A stretch of 38,438 bases of DNA from the IMG/VR virus record IMGVR_UViG_3300032325_000224, positions 1 to 38,438 of that record; one strand, 5' to 3'. A program made the position numbers and the translations under genes. The notes beneath the pieces were generated by a model that made no database searches, was not told the DNA's origin, and was given only the letters and a program-made list of their open reading frames with translations. Positions 3,885 to 8,542 of this stretch are shown here, piece by piece. The DNA is from a virus. How positions within the stretch are numbered: position 1 is the stretch's first letter; every line of letters starts with the position of its first letter.

Positions 3885-4126
3885 AAAAGCAAACCACCGC
3901 CGCGATCAGTTCGCTCGACTTCGCGCTTTCTCAACTCGGAACTGATAAGAAGCGAGAGGATGAGTTCAGCGTCGATGAATTTATCCAAGCGCTCGCGGCG
4001 CAAGGTGAAATCATCAGCGTGAGTTCGGCGGTCAGCCGCCTCAATGTTCTAATCACCAAGGGGGTTTTGACCAAGCGCAAAGCCAGATTGGGCGGGCGCA
4101 ATGTTAACATTTTCTCGAAGCCTTGA
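3881..4126 (+). CDS. Small winged-helix-like protein
   Basis: An 81-residue protein whose central part (SVDEFIQALAAQGEIISVSSAVSRLNVLI...GVLTKRKA) has the helix-helix-wing rhythm of a small winged-helix DNA-binding domain, ending in a short basic strand. The ATG at 3881 overlaps the stop of the phosphoesterase gene and is preferred over any upstream codon because of that coupling. Its 3' end overlaps the convergent integrase gene by 23 bases (4104-4126). No terminator is seen between the two. It might regulate integrase or late expression, but this is inference from position. Confidence 0.6.
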   Translation: MKKQTTAAISSLDFALSQLGTDKKREDEFSVDEFIQALAAQGEIISVSSAVSRLNVLITKGVLTKRKARLGGRNVNIFSKP

Positions 4127-5174
4127 GGCCGAAGTAAGCGAGGCCATCGGCCTGCGTCACGGCCCGCCGGTAGTGGCGGAAGAGGGTGGAGCTGCCTGCC
4201 GTGTGACCCATCGCCGCCTTGGCCCGCGCTTCATCGGTCGCCGCAAGGTAGTGCGACGCAAACGAATGCCGGAGAATGTCCTGCTCGCCGGCAATGCCCG
4301 ACGCCTTCCGAATCCGCTGCCATGACCGCCGCCAGTTGCCAGGCAACACCGGCCCGCTGGCAGGATGGCCAGCGATCTCTGCCCGCAGCCTCGGCGTCAG
4401 CGGAATGTGCCGGTCGCTGCCGGTCTTCGAGGTCGCAGGCGTGATGTAGATTTCTTTCGCGCCCACAGCCTCCCAGCCGAGCCGCGCGATCTCTCCGCTC
4501 TCAGCGTCCGGTCGGATGCCAGCAAAGGCCAAGAGCGCCACCACACGGCGCTCCTCGGGCGACTGGCAATGACCGAGCACCGACTCGACCTCGGTGAGCG
4601 TGAGGATCTTGATCTCCGTACTCTTCCGATGGCGCTCGCGGTAGTTGATGATGGCGAGGACGCGCGTTGTCCGCATGTCGATCGTCGCACGCGAGAGTTT
4701 CCGATCTTCGACCAGGGCTTTTTCAATGACGCCCCGGTCGATCACCCCGCAGGGCTTTGCAAAAAAACTTTTTGGCAACCACCGCAGCATTCGATCCATG
4801 TCCTGCCGGTAGCGGTCTGACCACCTGCCTTCGCCATCGAGTATGGCGCGATCGTACCGCTCGCTGAATGTTTCATTGCCACCGGATGATTTGATCTGCT
4901 TGGCCACGATCTTGGCCGCCTCTACCAACCCGATGCCGGTACCTTCGAGGATGCTGATGGCCTCAGTCGCCTGCAAAGCGATCGCAAGAGGTAGCGCCGA
5001 TCCACGGACCCCCGAGGCGTATTGCGACCTGAGCTTGCCCGCGTACCGGTTCGCTTCTGACTCGGTGCGGAAATACTTTTTGTGCCGCTTTCCATCAGCG
5101 GCCATGCTCTTCGGGATATTTACCCGCCACCCTTGGAGCGTCTTGAACGGTTTGATCTCAGCTACGCGCGGCAT
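4104..5174 (-). CDS. int: Tyrosine-family site-specific integrase
   Basis: A 356-residue recombinase that inserts and, with a directionality factor, excises the phage. The N-terminal region contains an arm-binding-like basic segment (GWRVNIPKSMAADGKRHKKY), then a core-binding helical domain at about 100-180. The catalytic domain carries the expected residues: Arg in 'AGIRPDAE', Lys in 'SKTGSDRHIPL', HxxR in 'ILRHSFASHY', His in 'MGHTAG' and the Tyr nucleophile in 'LFRHYRRA'. It is transcribed leftward, opposite to nearly all other genes, and its start lies 80 bases from a partial tRNA-Thr sequence, as usual for int/attP units. A purine-rich AAGG stands just upstream of its ATG. It is intact. 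Confidence 0.95.
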   Translation of the reverse strand: MPRVAEIKPFKTLQGWRVNIPKSMAADGKRHKKYFRTESEANRYAGKLRSQYASGVRGSALPLAIALQATEAISILEGTGIGLVEAAKIVAKQIKSSGGNETFSERYDRAILDGEGRWSDRYRQDMDRMLRWLPKSFFAKPCGVIDRGVIEKALVEDRKLSRATIDMRTTRVLAIINYRERHRKSTEIKILTLTEVESVLGHCQSPEERRVVALLAFAGIRPDAESGEIARLGWEAVGAKEIYITPATSKTGSDRHIPLTPRLRAEIAGHPASGPVLPGNWRRSWQRIRKASGIAGEQDILRHSFASHYLAATDEARAKAAMGHTAGSSTLFRHYRRAVTQADGLAYFGLKASRKC

Positions 5175-5995: not shown

Positions 5996-6184
5996 ATGAA
6001 CGCAGACACGCTTTCAAAACCGCTTGAAACAAGCACTCTTCCGCAAATCGCGCTCAAGGATCTTCCAGAGCAAACCAAGGACTACATCATCGCGTATTCG
6101 GCCACCGGGCTGACCGTTCAGCAGTCCATCCGCGAAATTCTGACCGCTGCCGCAAAAGCGCAACTCGAAGGAGGTGCGGCGTGA
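5996..6184 (+). CDS. First early gene, small regulator candidate
   Basis: A 62-residue protein directly behind the operator-controlled promoter, in the position of cro in lambdoid phages. The part 'DLPEQTKDYIIAYSATGLTVQQSIREIL' could form two or three helices, as in small helix-turn-helix or ribbon-helix-helix regulators, but no motif is definite. AAGGGG stands 6 bases before the ATG. It overlaps the next gene by GTGA (6181). A Cro-like role is inferred from position only. Confidence 0.6.
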   Translation: MNADTLSKPLETSTLPQIALKDLPEQTKDYIIAYSATGLTVQQSIREILTAAAKAQLEGGAA

Positions 6185-6390
6185 AAACCAAGCCTCGCCT
6201 CATCACTGCCGCTGCCTTGGCGAAGGAACTCGGAGTCTCTGCACCGACTGTCCGCAATCTCGAAGCCAAGGGAGTCATCAGGCCCGAGTTCCGAGTCGAC
6301 AACCTAGTCCGCTACGACCTCGCGAAGGTGCTCATCCAGCTCAAGGACGCACGCACCGCTCCGCCATCTCCAACTGCTCTCACCTACTAA
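6181..6390 (+). CDS. MerR/excisionase-like helix-turn-helix protein
   Basis: A 69-residue protein: 'LITAAALAKELGVSAPTVRNLEAKGVI' at residues 8-34 is a clear MerR-type winged helix-turn-helix of the kind found in excisionases and small phage activators, followed by 'RVDNLVRYDLAKVLIQL', the usual wing and closing helix. It starts with GTG overlapping the previous TGA. As the only excisionase-like protein near int, it is a candidate recombination directionality factor; alternatively it activates early genes. Confidence 0.7.
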   Translation: MKTKPRLITAAALAKELGVSAPTVRNLEAKGVIRPEFRVDNLVRYDLAKVLIQLKDARTAPPSPTALTY

Positions 6391-6705: not shown

Positions 6706-7563
6706 ATGAAAACATCAGGGATCATTCTTGGCGTAGGCGCACCTAACCGTTGCCGCGATGGATCGAAAACAATGTGCGCGATCATCTTAACGGAAGAACT
6801 TGGATTTATTCGCGTCTACCCAATCCCTGCCGAAAAAAGATTTGGCGTTTGGAATAAGGTGCGAGTTTGGCTTGAAAAAAGCAAAACTGACAACCGTCAA
6901 GAGAGCTATAAACTCACCGCTTTCGAAGTCTATGACTCTATTACTGATAAAGAGGAAAAATTAGACATACTAGACAACTGCTCAATCAAAAGCGGCACAC
7001 AAGACCCCATTGATTTTTGCAACAACAGGAGATCAAGCGTTGCTCTAATTAAGGTGCCTCCGCACACGCTTGGAATATCCATTTCATCGAGAGCTCCAAT
7101 ACCAAGGCCAGCGAGTGAGTATGAAGAATACTCATGGCTGCTATCACAAGAGGATCATTGGCAAAAGCCATACCTTGAATGGGTATCTGAACAAGGCAAA
7201 GAGCATCGCACTCACCTCGTAGGGCGTGAGGTTTATATGGGTCTTCAAAACAATCCCACTAAACCGCTTGCGGTGTACGAAAACATGGGGATCACCGTTC
7301 CTGATTTCCAGCACTGGTTGCTACTCGGAAACATGAAGGATCGCAGGAATGTGTGGGTAGGCGTACACCTTCATCGCCAAAAAAAGCAGATAAACGGTTC
7401 TATCCCGCTCTTCTCCGTGATCCGAAATGGAAAGCCCGACGATTGGCCATACTTAAAGCAGGAAATTTCAAATGTGCCTGTTGTGGACAACCAGCCGCTG
7501 CTGTTCACCACCGAGGCTATGACCTCAACAAACTTCCGTGGGAGTACGGTGATGATTGCCTGA
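6706..7563 (+). CDS. Unknown protein, possibly made as a frameshift fusion with the HNH nuclease
   Basis: The full frame is 285 residues. The N-terminal part (TMCAIILTEELGFIRVYPIP, then VWNKVRVWLEKSK and DNRQESYKL) resembles a family of uncharacterised prokaryotic proteins I have seen but cannot name. From 7353 the frame overlaps an HNH gene for 211 bases, and there the HNH frame carries clear conserved motifs while this frame looks like a by-product. At 7380-7386 the sequence A_AAA_AAG is in phase in this frame and a -1 slip enters the HNH frame, giving a 300-residue fusion (227 + 73). Base composition is clearly more AT-rich than the flanking genes, suggesting recent acquisition. Alternatives: two separate proteins, or an indel in the A7 run. 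Confidence 0.65.
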   Translation: MKTSGIILGVGAPNRCRDGSKTMCAIILTEELGFIRVYPIPAEKRFGVWNKVRVWLEKSKTDNRQESYKLTAFEVYDSITDKEEKLDILDNCSIKSGTQDPIDFCNNRRSSVALIKVPPHTLGISISSRAPIPRPASEYEEYSWLLSQEDHWQKPYLEWVSEQGKEHRTHLVGREVYMGLQNNPTKPLAVYENMGITVPDFQHWLLLGNMKDRRNVWVGVHLHRQKKQINGSIPLFSVIRNGKPDDWPYLKQEISNVPVVDNQPLLFTTEAMTSTNFRGSTVMIA

Positions 7564-7607
7564 TTCCCATCTGTAGAAAATGCCACCGACTAATACACAA
7601 TCCATGA
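7353..7607 (+). CDS. HNH endonuclease domain
   Basis: An 84-residue frame with a complete HNH fold: 'DPKWKARRLAILKAG' entry helix, CxxC at 'CACC', the 'VHHRGY' His-His, 'LIPICRKCH' with the second CxxC and 'RLIHN'. These bind a structural zinc and one catalytic metal that cuts DNA. The independent start would be GTG at 7353 with CAGGA five bases upstream. Alternatively the domain is translated as the C-terminus of the 6706 gene by -1 frameshifting. Its stop overlaps the ParB-like start (ATGA, 7604). Stand-alone HNH proteins in phages can be homing nucleases or packaging partners; this one is far from terminase, so homing or defence/counter-defence is likelier. Confidence 0.8.
   Translation: MGRRTPSSPKKADKRFYPALLRDPKWKARRLAILKAGNFKCACCGQPAAAVHHRGYDLNKLPWEYGDDCLIPICRKCHRLIHNP
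7380..7386 (+). other. A_AAA_AAG slippery heptamer (candidate -1 frameshift site)
   Basis: In the 6706 frame the codons are CAA AAA AAG, so the heptamer is in the right phase for a -1 slip. The -1 frame then reads GCA GAT AAA and continues as the HNH domain. A_AAA_AAG is the slippery sequence of E. coli dnaX. No obvious stimulatory hairpin was seen by eye directly downstream. Confidence 0.55.
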
Positions 7608-8542
7608 AAAAGCACAAATACAACATATTCCCCGAAGCTAAGACCGAGGATTTCACCCGCCTGATCGATGACATCCGCACAAACGGATTCGATCAAAAGC
7701 AACCTGTCACTCTTTACCAAGGAGAGGTGCTGGATGGATGGAACCGCACCAAGGCTTGCCAAGAGCTTGGCATCAAGCCGCCGACCATCATCTTTACCGG
7801 CACCGATGCTGACGCCATTGCTTTTGTGATGCGCACCAACAAGCGCCGCAACCTTAACAGTGGACAATGGGCGTGCATAGCAGCCGAGGCTGATGACCTG
7901 CTCGCTGTCATCGCGGAACAGGTGGAAAAAGATGCTGAGCGGAAGCGCATCGAGAACGCGGCGAATCAGCATCAGCCTCAGGACAAAAAATTGTCCGCAC
8001 CCAGCAACCAGCACGCTGATAAAACTGCCACCAAAGCCGCCGAGCTTTTCAACACGAACCGCACCTACGTCAACCAAGCAGTCAAGATGAAGACTGCCGC
8101 GCCAGAAGTCTTTGAAAAGGTCAAGGCTGGCAAGATGACGATGCAGGACGCTAACAAGGCAGTCCGAGCTATTCCAACTGACCCATGGCTTGATGATGAA
8201 GAGCTAAGAAAAAAAGAGGTGGAAAATGGGAGCGCTGTCATCGCTAACGCACAGCGCGACAAGAACCTTATTCAGTGGGCTGAAAAGAAAGGTTTAGCAG
8301 TTCGAATTGATAGAGGAACGCCATTTGGAAATCCATACATACTCGACGCGGATGGAGATAGGGAAACGGTTTGCTACCACTATGAGTGGGACTATTTGCC
8401 CTACAAACCTTCGATCCTCAACAAGCTCAAAGAGCTAAAAGGCAAAGTGTTGATATGTCACTGCTATCCCAAAGCGTGCCATGGGGATTCGTTAGTAAAT
8501 TGGGCACATAATAAACACGAACATAGAACTCCACACCAATGA
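7604..8542 (+). CDS. ParB-like N-terminal domain fused to DUF4326
   Basis: A 312-residue protein. Residues about 8-80 resemble a ParB/Srx-type domain: 'FTRLIDDIRTNGF' and 'GEVLDGWNRTKACQELGI', matching the DGxxRxxA core. Residues 95-200 are helical with a KorB-like HTH region (NTNRTYVNQAVKMKT) and a segment (EVFEKVKAGKMTMQDANKAV) typical of phage ParB proteins. The C-terminus (RGTPFGNPY... then GKVLICHCYPKACHGDSL) is a DUF4326 domain with its conserved GNP and C-x-C...CHG motifs. The ParB domain may bind or hydrolyse CTP or act as a nuclease; DUF4326 function is unknown. The ATG at 7604 overlaps the HNH stop and is preferred over 7580. The C-terminal part is more AT-rich. Confidence 0.8.
   Translation: MKKHKYNIFPEAKTEDFTRLIDDIRTNGFDQKQPVTLYQGEVLDGWNRTKACQELGIKPPTIIFTGTDADAIAFVMRTNKRRNLNSGQWACIAAEADDLLAVIAEQVEKDAERKRIENAANQHQPQDKKLSAPSNQHADKTATKAAELFNTNRTYVNQAVKMKTAAPEVFEKVKAGKMTMQDANKAVRAIPTDPWLDDEELRKKEVENGSAVIANAQRDKNLIQWAEKKGLAVRIDRGTPFGNPYILDADGDRETVCYHYEWDYLPYKPSILNKLKELKGKVLICHCYPKACHGDSLVNWAHNKHEHRTPHQ

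Follow-up and report, generated by a model that had tools for sequence, protein, structure and literature searches.

The window, by which we mean the whole stretch of 38,438 bases analysed here, is an IMG/VR virus record of a tailed phage and contains a module of three coding regions, designated N, HNH, and ParB-DUF4326. A minus-strand integrase gene (4104–5174) is followed by N, HNH, ParB-DUF4326, and genes for a RecT/Bet-like annealing protein and a RecE-like exonuclease; terminase, portal, and head genes are also present. A small HTH protein with a match to PADLOC mad1 (E = 1.1e-5) and a weak match to MerR-type HTH domains is encoded 5' of N (6181–6387). The module itself lies on the plus strand. 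Gene N (6706–7563, 285 amino acids) belongs to the PADLOC PDC-M19B/phrog_25907 family and is related to genes on 23 other viral contigs. The HNH frame (7353–7607) measures 84 amino acids from a GTG at 7353, with no stop back to 7305. As an earlier, sequence-only reading of this DNA had it, the two frames overlap by 211 bases, and the slippery heptamer A_AAA_AAG at 7380–7386 is in phase for a -1 slip (zero-frame codons CAA AAA AAG, 7378–7386), which would give a product of 227 + 73 = 300 residues retaining the complete HNH domain. Entered via the slip, the HNH domain occupies 7380–7607 with its stop at 7605–7607, and this stop lies inside an ATGA (7604–7607) whose ATG begins the downstream partner gene, which is ParB-like with a C-terminal DUF4326 (7604–8542). 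Over the same bases the zero frame continues as the C-terminal tail of N (7387–7563), predicted to be disordered (pLDDT ~30), with an invariant WPY (7444–7452) and a QPLLF (7492–7506; residues 263–267, followed by 18 residues to the end) that is a candidate sliding-clamp-binding motif of the form QxxLF.

The AlphaFold2 model of N (18 alignment rows, mean pLDDT 71) contains a confidently modelled barrel at residues 1–80 (6706–6945; pLDDT about 83–93) with a predicted OB fold. By VIA-align, in rows that span N residues 1–92 only, the barrel resembles an archaeal RPA OB domain (Z 9.5, rmsd 1.8 over 76 residues); RPA, PriB (Z 9.2), and SSB OB domains fall at Z 8–9.5, with tRNA-synthetase OB domains tied or close behind. 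The modelled barrel is thus likely a nucleic-acid-binding domain, although the fold by itself neither establishes a function nor singles out single-stranded DNA. Longer Foldseek alignments to tandem OB proteins were discounted because of their high rmsd. At the sequence level, N had nothing above chance in Pfam and NCBIfam and no match among PDB sequences. It does match phrog_25907 and PDC-M19B (E = 7.7e-7, residues 13–80 only), and the PDC-M19B model PDLC04508 matches 17 of the 18 members of the N alignment. The same model also matches in the control genomes of Synechococcus elongatus and Methanosarcina acetivorans.

PDC-M19 is called as a pair, and the ParB-DUF4326 of the window matches no M19A model, leaving the pair incomplete here. 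The neighbour of the N homologue in Haloquadratum is a ParB-DUF488 that does match M19A, and distant N homologues mostly adjoin DUF488 genes. On plasmids of several phyla (L041, L088, L092–L094, and L097–L104) the N homologues adjoin DUF488 or ParB-DUF488 genes, while the window N adjoins ParB-DUF4326; the neighbour in a Gordonia phage is annotated as ‘HipA toxin’. The use that phages make of the N/partner module may be other than defence.

As a query, the N of the window alone recovered zero relatives in viral contigs, genome contigs, or phage records. The relatives were reached via the ParB-DUF4326 neighbour and the HNH and then via alignments of those sequences, an approach that returned none from genome contigs and so no cellular prophage copies of the clade. 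Including the window, N of this clade occurs on 24 distinct contigs (L002 and L033 are the same contig and were counted once). The HNH is present in 22 of the 24; these are not 22 independent lineages and form about eight groups (window/L017/L023; L014/L015/L016/L024; L018; L028/L032; L034; L003–L007/L036/L038; L083; L084–L086), with L023 truncated by its contig end. In the remaining two contigs, L030 and L033, the HNH is absent beside N.

The sequence-only reading had proposed that homologues be compared for in-frame fusions and for conservation of the heptamer, and the comparison fell out in favour of a frameshift. A_AAA_AAG or A_AAA_AAA, in phase and with the HNH in the -1 frame, occurs in all 22 contigs with N and HNH; the heptamer is missing from both N-only contigs (CTT AAA AAA AGA at the site in L033, TTG AAG CGT in L030); and an in-frame fusion of N and HNH was found in none of the 24. 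This conservation exceeds chance. The codon before the two lysines is CTA or TTA in 16 of 17 aligned rows, so that every row with a leucine there (16/16) has an A-ending codon, compared to 19% for leucine codons of these genes overall. The window has glutamine (CAA) in place of the leucine and retains the third-position A.

A tree of N that includes archaeal outgroups places L033 inside the HNH carriers with moderate support (91/91 and 91/83, below the star threshold), while its placement of L030 gives no choice between loss of the HNH and an ancestral HNH-less state. A joint loss of HNH and heptamer on at least one occasion, with the tail retained, is probable. By eye, the closed -1 frame of L033 after the two lysines is partly HNH-like (RWQLAL, WAAIAF) and may be the remnant of an HNH since lost.

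The HNH of the window was recognized by profile (phrog_119, E = 1.1e-6; phrog_144, E = 1.2e-5) with a score under Pfam's own cut-off for PF01844. The zinc-binding and catalytic-type residues (CxxC, HH, CxxCHxxxH) are invariant in 11 aligned rows and readable in L083–L086. A coding signal in the -1 frame accompanies them. In 15 chosen pairs, pooled and not independent as many share a member, the -1 frame drops from a pN/pS of 2.50 over the 90 bases that precede the heptamer to 0.60 over the 138 bases that follow, and the corresponding +1-frame values are 1.16 and 1.01. By these counts, selection on the -1 frame starts at the heptamer and not upstream. In the same pooled pairs, pN/pS of the zero frame is 0.19 before the heptamer and 0.70 after it, and synonymous change in this frame is 0.715 before and 0.277 after.

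The value of 0.70 is weaker constraint than in a single-frame gene, as is expected where two frames constrain each other, and it could also be taken to mean that the frameshift is real while the zero-frame tail is a functionless leftover, its conservation imposed by the HNH frame, since overlapping frames force some similarity. The sequence-only reading had similarly dismissed the tail as a non-conserved by-product. That description was wrong: all 24 contigs have WPY, the tail is under purifying selection, and it often carries QxxLF. The leftover tail is an improbable reading. Both HNH-less contigs, where no HNH frame could impose conservation, keep the tail as WPY..Q...N followed by QPLLF (L033) or QYSLAL (L030). 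Where the HNH is present, sites synonymous in its frame change at 0.303, compared to 0.715 at synonymous sites upstream. Further, random synonymous draws given the HNH protein and local codon use leave the zero frame open in 6–53% of cases, and WPY..Q appears in only 0.025–1.2% of draws given each HNH sequence. The pair L028/L032 has 41 differences in N upstream, 0 in the 180 bases of the overlap, and a pS of 0.46 in ParB beyond. Recombination was considered as a cause of such low divergence and rejected, as the DNA flanking the overlap is divergent on either side in L028/L032 and L003/L005. Judged by these comparisons, the overlap is constrained in both frames, each of which is under purifying selection after the heptamer.

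Recombination is visible elsewhere in the module. Downstream, L014 and L024 are nearly identical in ParB (pS 0.02, against 0.28 in N), and L015 has a different segment after the HNH, in both cases placing the recombination beside the HNH. In one group (L003–L007, L036, and L038) the zero-frame ORF ends 10 bases past the HNH stop, such that the HNH is wholly nested in the N frame.

The bacterial clamp-binding consensus is described as QL[S/D]LF and more generally QxxLF (PMC12309361). Among the 23 complete tails, an exact QxxLF occurs in 11 (window, L014–L017, L024, L033, L034, and L084–L086) and the other 12 are inexact, with HxxLF in three (L018, L028, and L032), QMLLGF or QMLLEF in seven, QYSLAL in L030, and none in L083. 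In rows with [QH]xxLF, the chance of the motif under HNH-only constraint is 0.001–0.016 per row. Distant homologues, from plasmids and one Gordonia phage, carry QxxLF within the last 40 residues in 10 of 15 bacterial and phage proteins (those fetched, one per group of near-identical records), compared to a shuffled mean of 0.46, and several have it at the very end, e.g., QLSLF in Fischerella and Calothrix. The count in archaeal distant homologues is 0 of 4. A second QxxLF near residue 150 is found in most of the bacterial distant homologues and also in the archaeon Haloquadratum, and is absent in the clade of the window; this inner motif counts against the uniqueness of the C-terminal one. Proteins that carry both the inner motif, which lies between the two halves, and the C-terminal one include L087, L090, L091–L094, L097–L099, L101, and L104. 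Based on the motif, the tail probably binds the host sliding clamp through QxxLF, and PDC-M19B as a whole may be a family of sliding-clamp clients.

The A run at the slip site has 6 As in 10 of 17 rows, 7 in the window, 8 in five, and 9 in L034; A_AAA_AAA with a run of eight was read in seven rows, and in L083–L086 by context. Across runs of 6, 7, 8, and 9, N is always in the zero frame and the HNH always in the -1 frame. These runs raise the prospect of transcriptional slippage, in which RNA polymerase and not the ribosome slips, and polymerase slippage could contribute where there are 8 and 9 As (the L003 group and L034). As a general explanation it is slightly less probable still than a leftover tail: 11 of the 17 rows have only 6 or 7 As and keep both heptamer and codon phase, and A_AAA_AAG is described as the most shift-prone of the A-rich heptamers in E. 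coli and as the site used in dnaX (PMC5009743, PMC4066793). Ribosomal slippage is favoured by the A6 runs, with members carrying A8 or A9 less clear. No stimulatory structure downstream is common to all contigs or holds a single register. Local hairpins 3' of the heptamer occur in several, with z between +1.3 and -3.3, strongest in L017 and L023 and weak in the window.

Production of the HNH as a separate protein, through internal initiation in the -1 frame, is very unlikely. In the window it would begin at the GTG at 7353, 27 bases before the heptamer, where an SD-like AGGA lies four bases upstream. An ATG, GTG, or TTG is found at -27 in 12 of 20 loci and at +63 in 18 of 20, but the frequency of NTG codons at both positions is explained by an invariant zero-frame Trp (TGG) there. 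No start codon position is common to all HNH frames. L017 and L023 lack a start codon upstream of the heptamer in the -1 frame, and in L004, L005, L036, and L038 a stop intervenes between -27 and the heptamer, leaving the -1 frame open for only four codons before it. In L034 an own start is impossible because a TAG lies one codon 5' of the heptamer and no ATG, GTG, or TTG follows until the first HNH cysteine. Also at odds with internal initiation are the lack of a -1 coding signal before the heptamer and a conserved segment, RFYPALL...W, between the heptamer and +63 that has its match at the beginning of free-standing HNH proteins. All 13 such relatives listed consist of one ORF that has its own start, and the proteins in L057–L080 are 35–46% identical to the HNH described here. 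For a homing endonuclease, the HNH is too regular in its placement, as it sits at the same place in all 22 contigs and is read through N instead of standing free. Among 11 loci of distant N homologues (L041, L042, and L087–L095), no HNH was found nearby, the best match being at E = 0.092 on the opposite strand.

Phase variation, sequencing error, or a decayed fusion gene would suit a homopolymer run in metagenome contigs with no in-frame fusion to compare, but is hardly credible given the same frame relation in 22 of 22 contigs at four run lengths, the lack of any variant in which N and HNH share a frame, and purifying selection in both frames downstream of the heptamer; the same constancy contradicts the phase-variable A7 run, and argues against the assembly error, that the sequence-only reading had held out as alternatives.

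Programmed -1 frameshifting that joins N to the HNH is thus very likely (we assign it a probability of about 0.9), because the heptamer is kept in 22 of 22 carriers, -1 coding begins at the heptamer, no start is common to the HNH frames, and heptamer and HNH are absent together. The proposal of a programmed frameshift into a nuclease is in this respect strongly supported by comparison. Its description as the addition of a nuclease is too simple: with the tail conserved, under purifying selection, and often bearing QxxLF, the shift appears to be a choice between two conserved C-termini.

We infer from the sequences that the shift occurs in cells, and propose that most ribosomes would read on in the zero frame and make the protein of 285 residues, whose body (residues 1 to about 225) contains the predicted OB fold and whose disordered tail carries WPY and QPLLF. 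A fraction would slip back one base at A_AAA_AAG, with tRNA-Lys re-pairing, and make the 300-residue protein in which the same body ends in the HNH nuclease domain. The shift would trade the putative clamp-binding tail for a predicted nuclease and set the ratio of the two products.

Shifted ribosomes would stop at the ATGA, and because the HNH stop lies in the ATGA that starts the ParB gene, they may feed translation of ParB-DUF4326. The HNH stop is inside an ATGA in 20 of 20 loci with a complete HNH, and in the window and most other loci its ATG is the start codon of the ParB-like gene. In L083 the ATG is directly followed by a stop, and in L015 the ParB similarity starts about 240 bases further on. 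In L030 and L033 the stop of N itself is within such an ATGA.

Functionally, the frameshift is best read as exchanging a tail that docks on the clamp for a nuclease, a reading to which we would give close to even odds. Extended to the family, with odds a little short of even, N would represent widespread plasmid and phage clients of the sliding clamp, with an OB fold, a DUF488 or DUF4326 partner, a C-terminal QxxLF, and in many cases also an inner one. One phage clade would toggle by a -1 shift between a clamp-docking form and an HNH form unable to dock via that tail, with both ends specified by the same ~60 codons (80 in one group) and the shift coupling nuclease output to ParB-DUF4326 translation. 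If this is true, it would constitute a new use of frameshifting, a replication-clamp tail versus a nuclease with both ends overwritten in the same DNA, and a built-in ratio of the targeting form to the cutting form of one phage protein. Clamp binding, if confirmed, would be the first functional handle on a family so far termed ‘hypothetical’ or a candidate defence component.

The module has partial counterparts among known systems. It resembles PADLOC PDC-M19, a candidate defence pair A/B, in that N matches M19B models and the Haloquadratum neighbour matches M19A; it differs in its partner gene and in the additional HNH and heptamer. The HNH is by profile the same domain as in free-standing phage HNH nucleases (phrog_119, phrog_4581, and phrog_144), but those are one ORF with its own start, which the domain here lacks. 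Most frameshifts known in bacteria and phages have roles in tail assembly or transposition or act in the clamp loader (dnaX). Among the papers that literature searches on HNH or other endonucleases and frameshifting listed, no title or abstract opening describes an HNH reached via programmed frameshifting, which is no proof of absence. In dnaX the -1 shift truncates the protein shortly after the slip site. The E. coli gene (tau/gamma) is described with the identical heptamer, A_AAA_AAG (PMC5009743), and likewise has one gene with two products that share an N-terminal part. Unlike in dnaX, the domain gained through the shift here would be a complete nuclease, and without a shift the frame runs for 58 more codons with conserved motifs of its own. 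In the tail assembly chaperones of dsDNA phages (lambda G/GT type), a -1 slip adds a C-terminal domain, as would also be the case in this phage gene. Unlike the chaperones, N is a non-tail gene located 5' of ParB and RecT and not of a tape measure gene, the added domain is an enzyme, and both C-termini are conserved. In transposases of the IS1 and IS3 families, A-rich slippery heptamers join a DNA-binding part to a catalytic domain. The likeness to these transposase frameshifts, as described in PMC4066793, lies in the A-rich heptamer and the added catalytic domain. The difference is that the domain added here is an HNH nuclease and no transposase, and that it is encoded across a long dual-coded overlap with a conserved zero-frame product.
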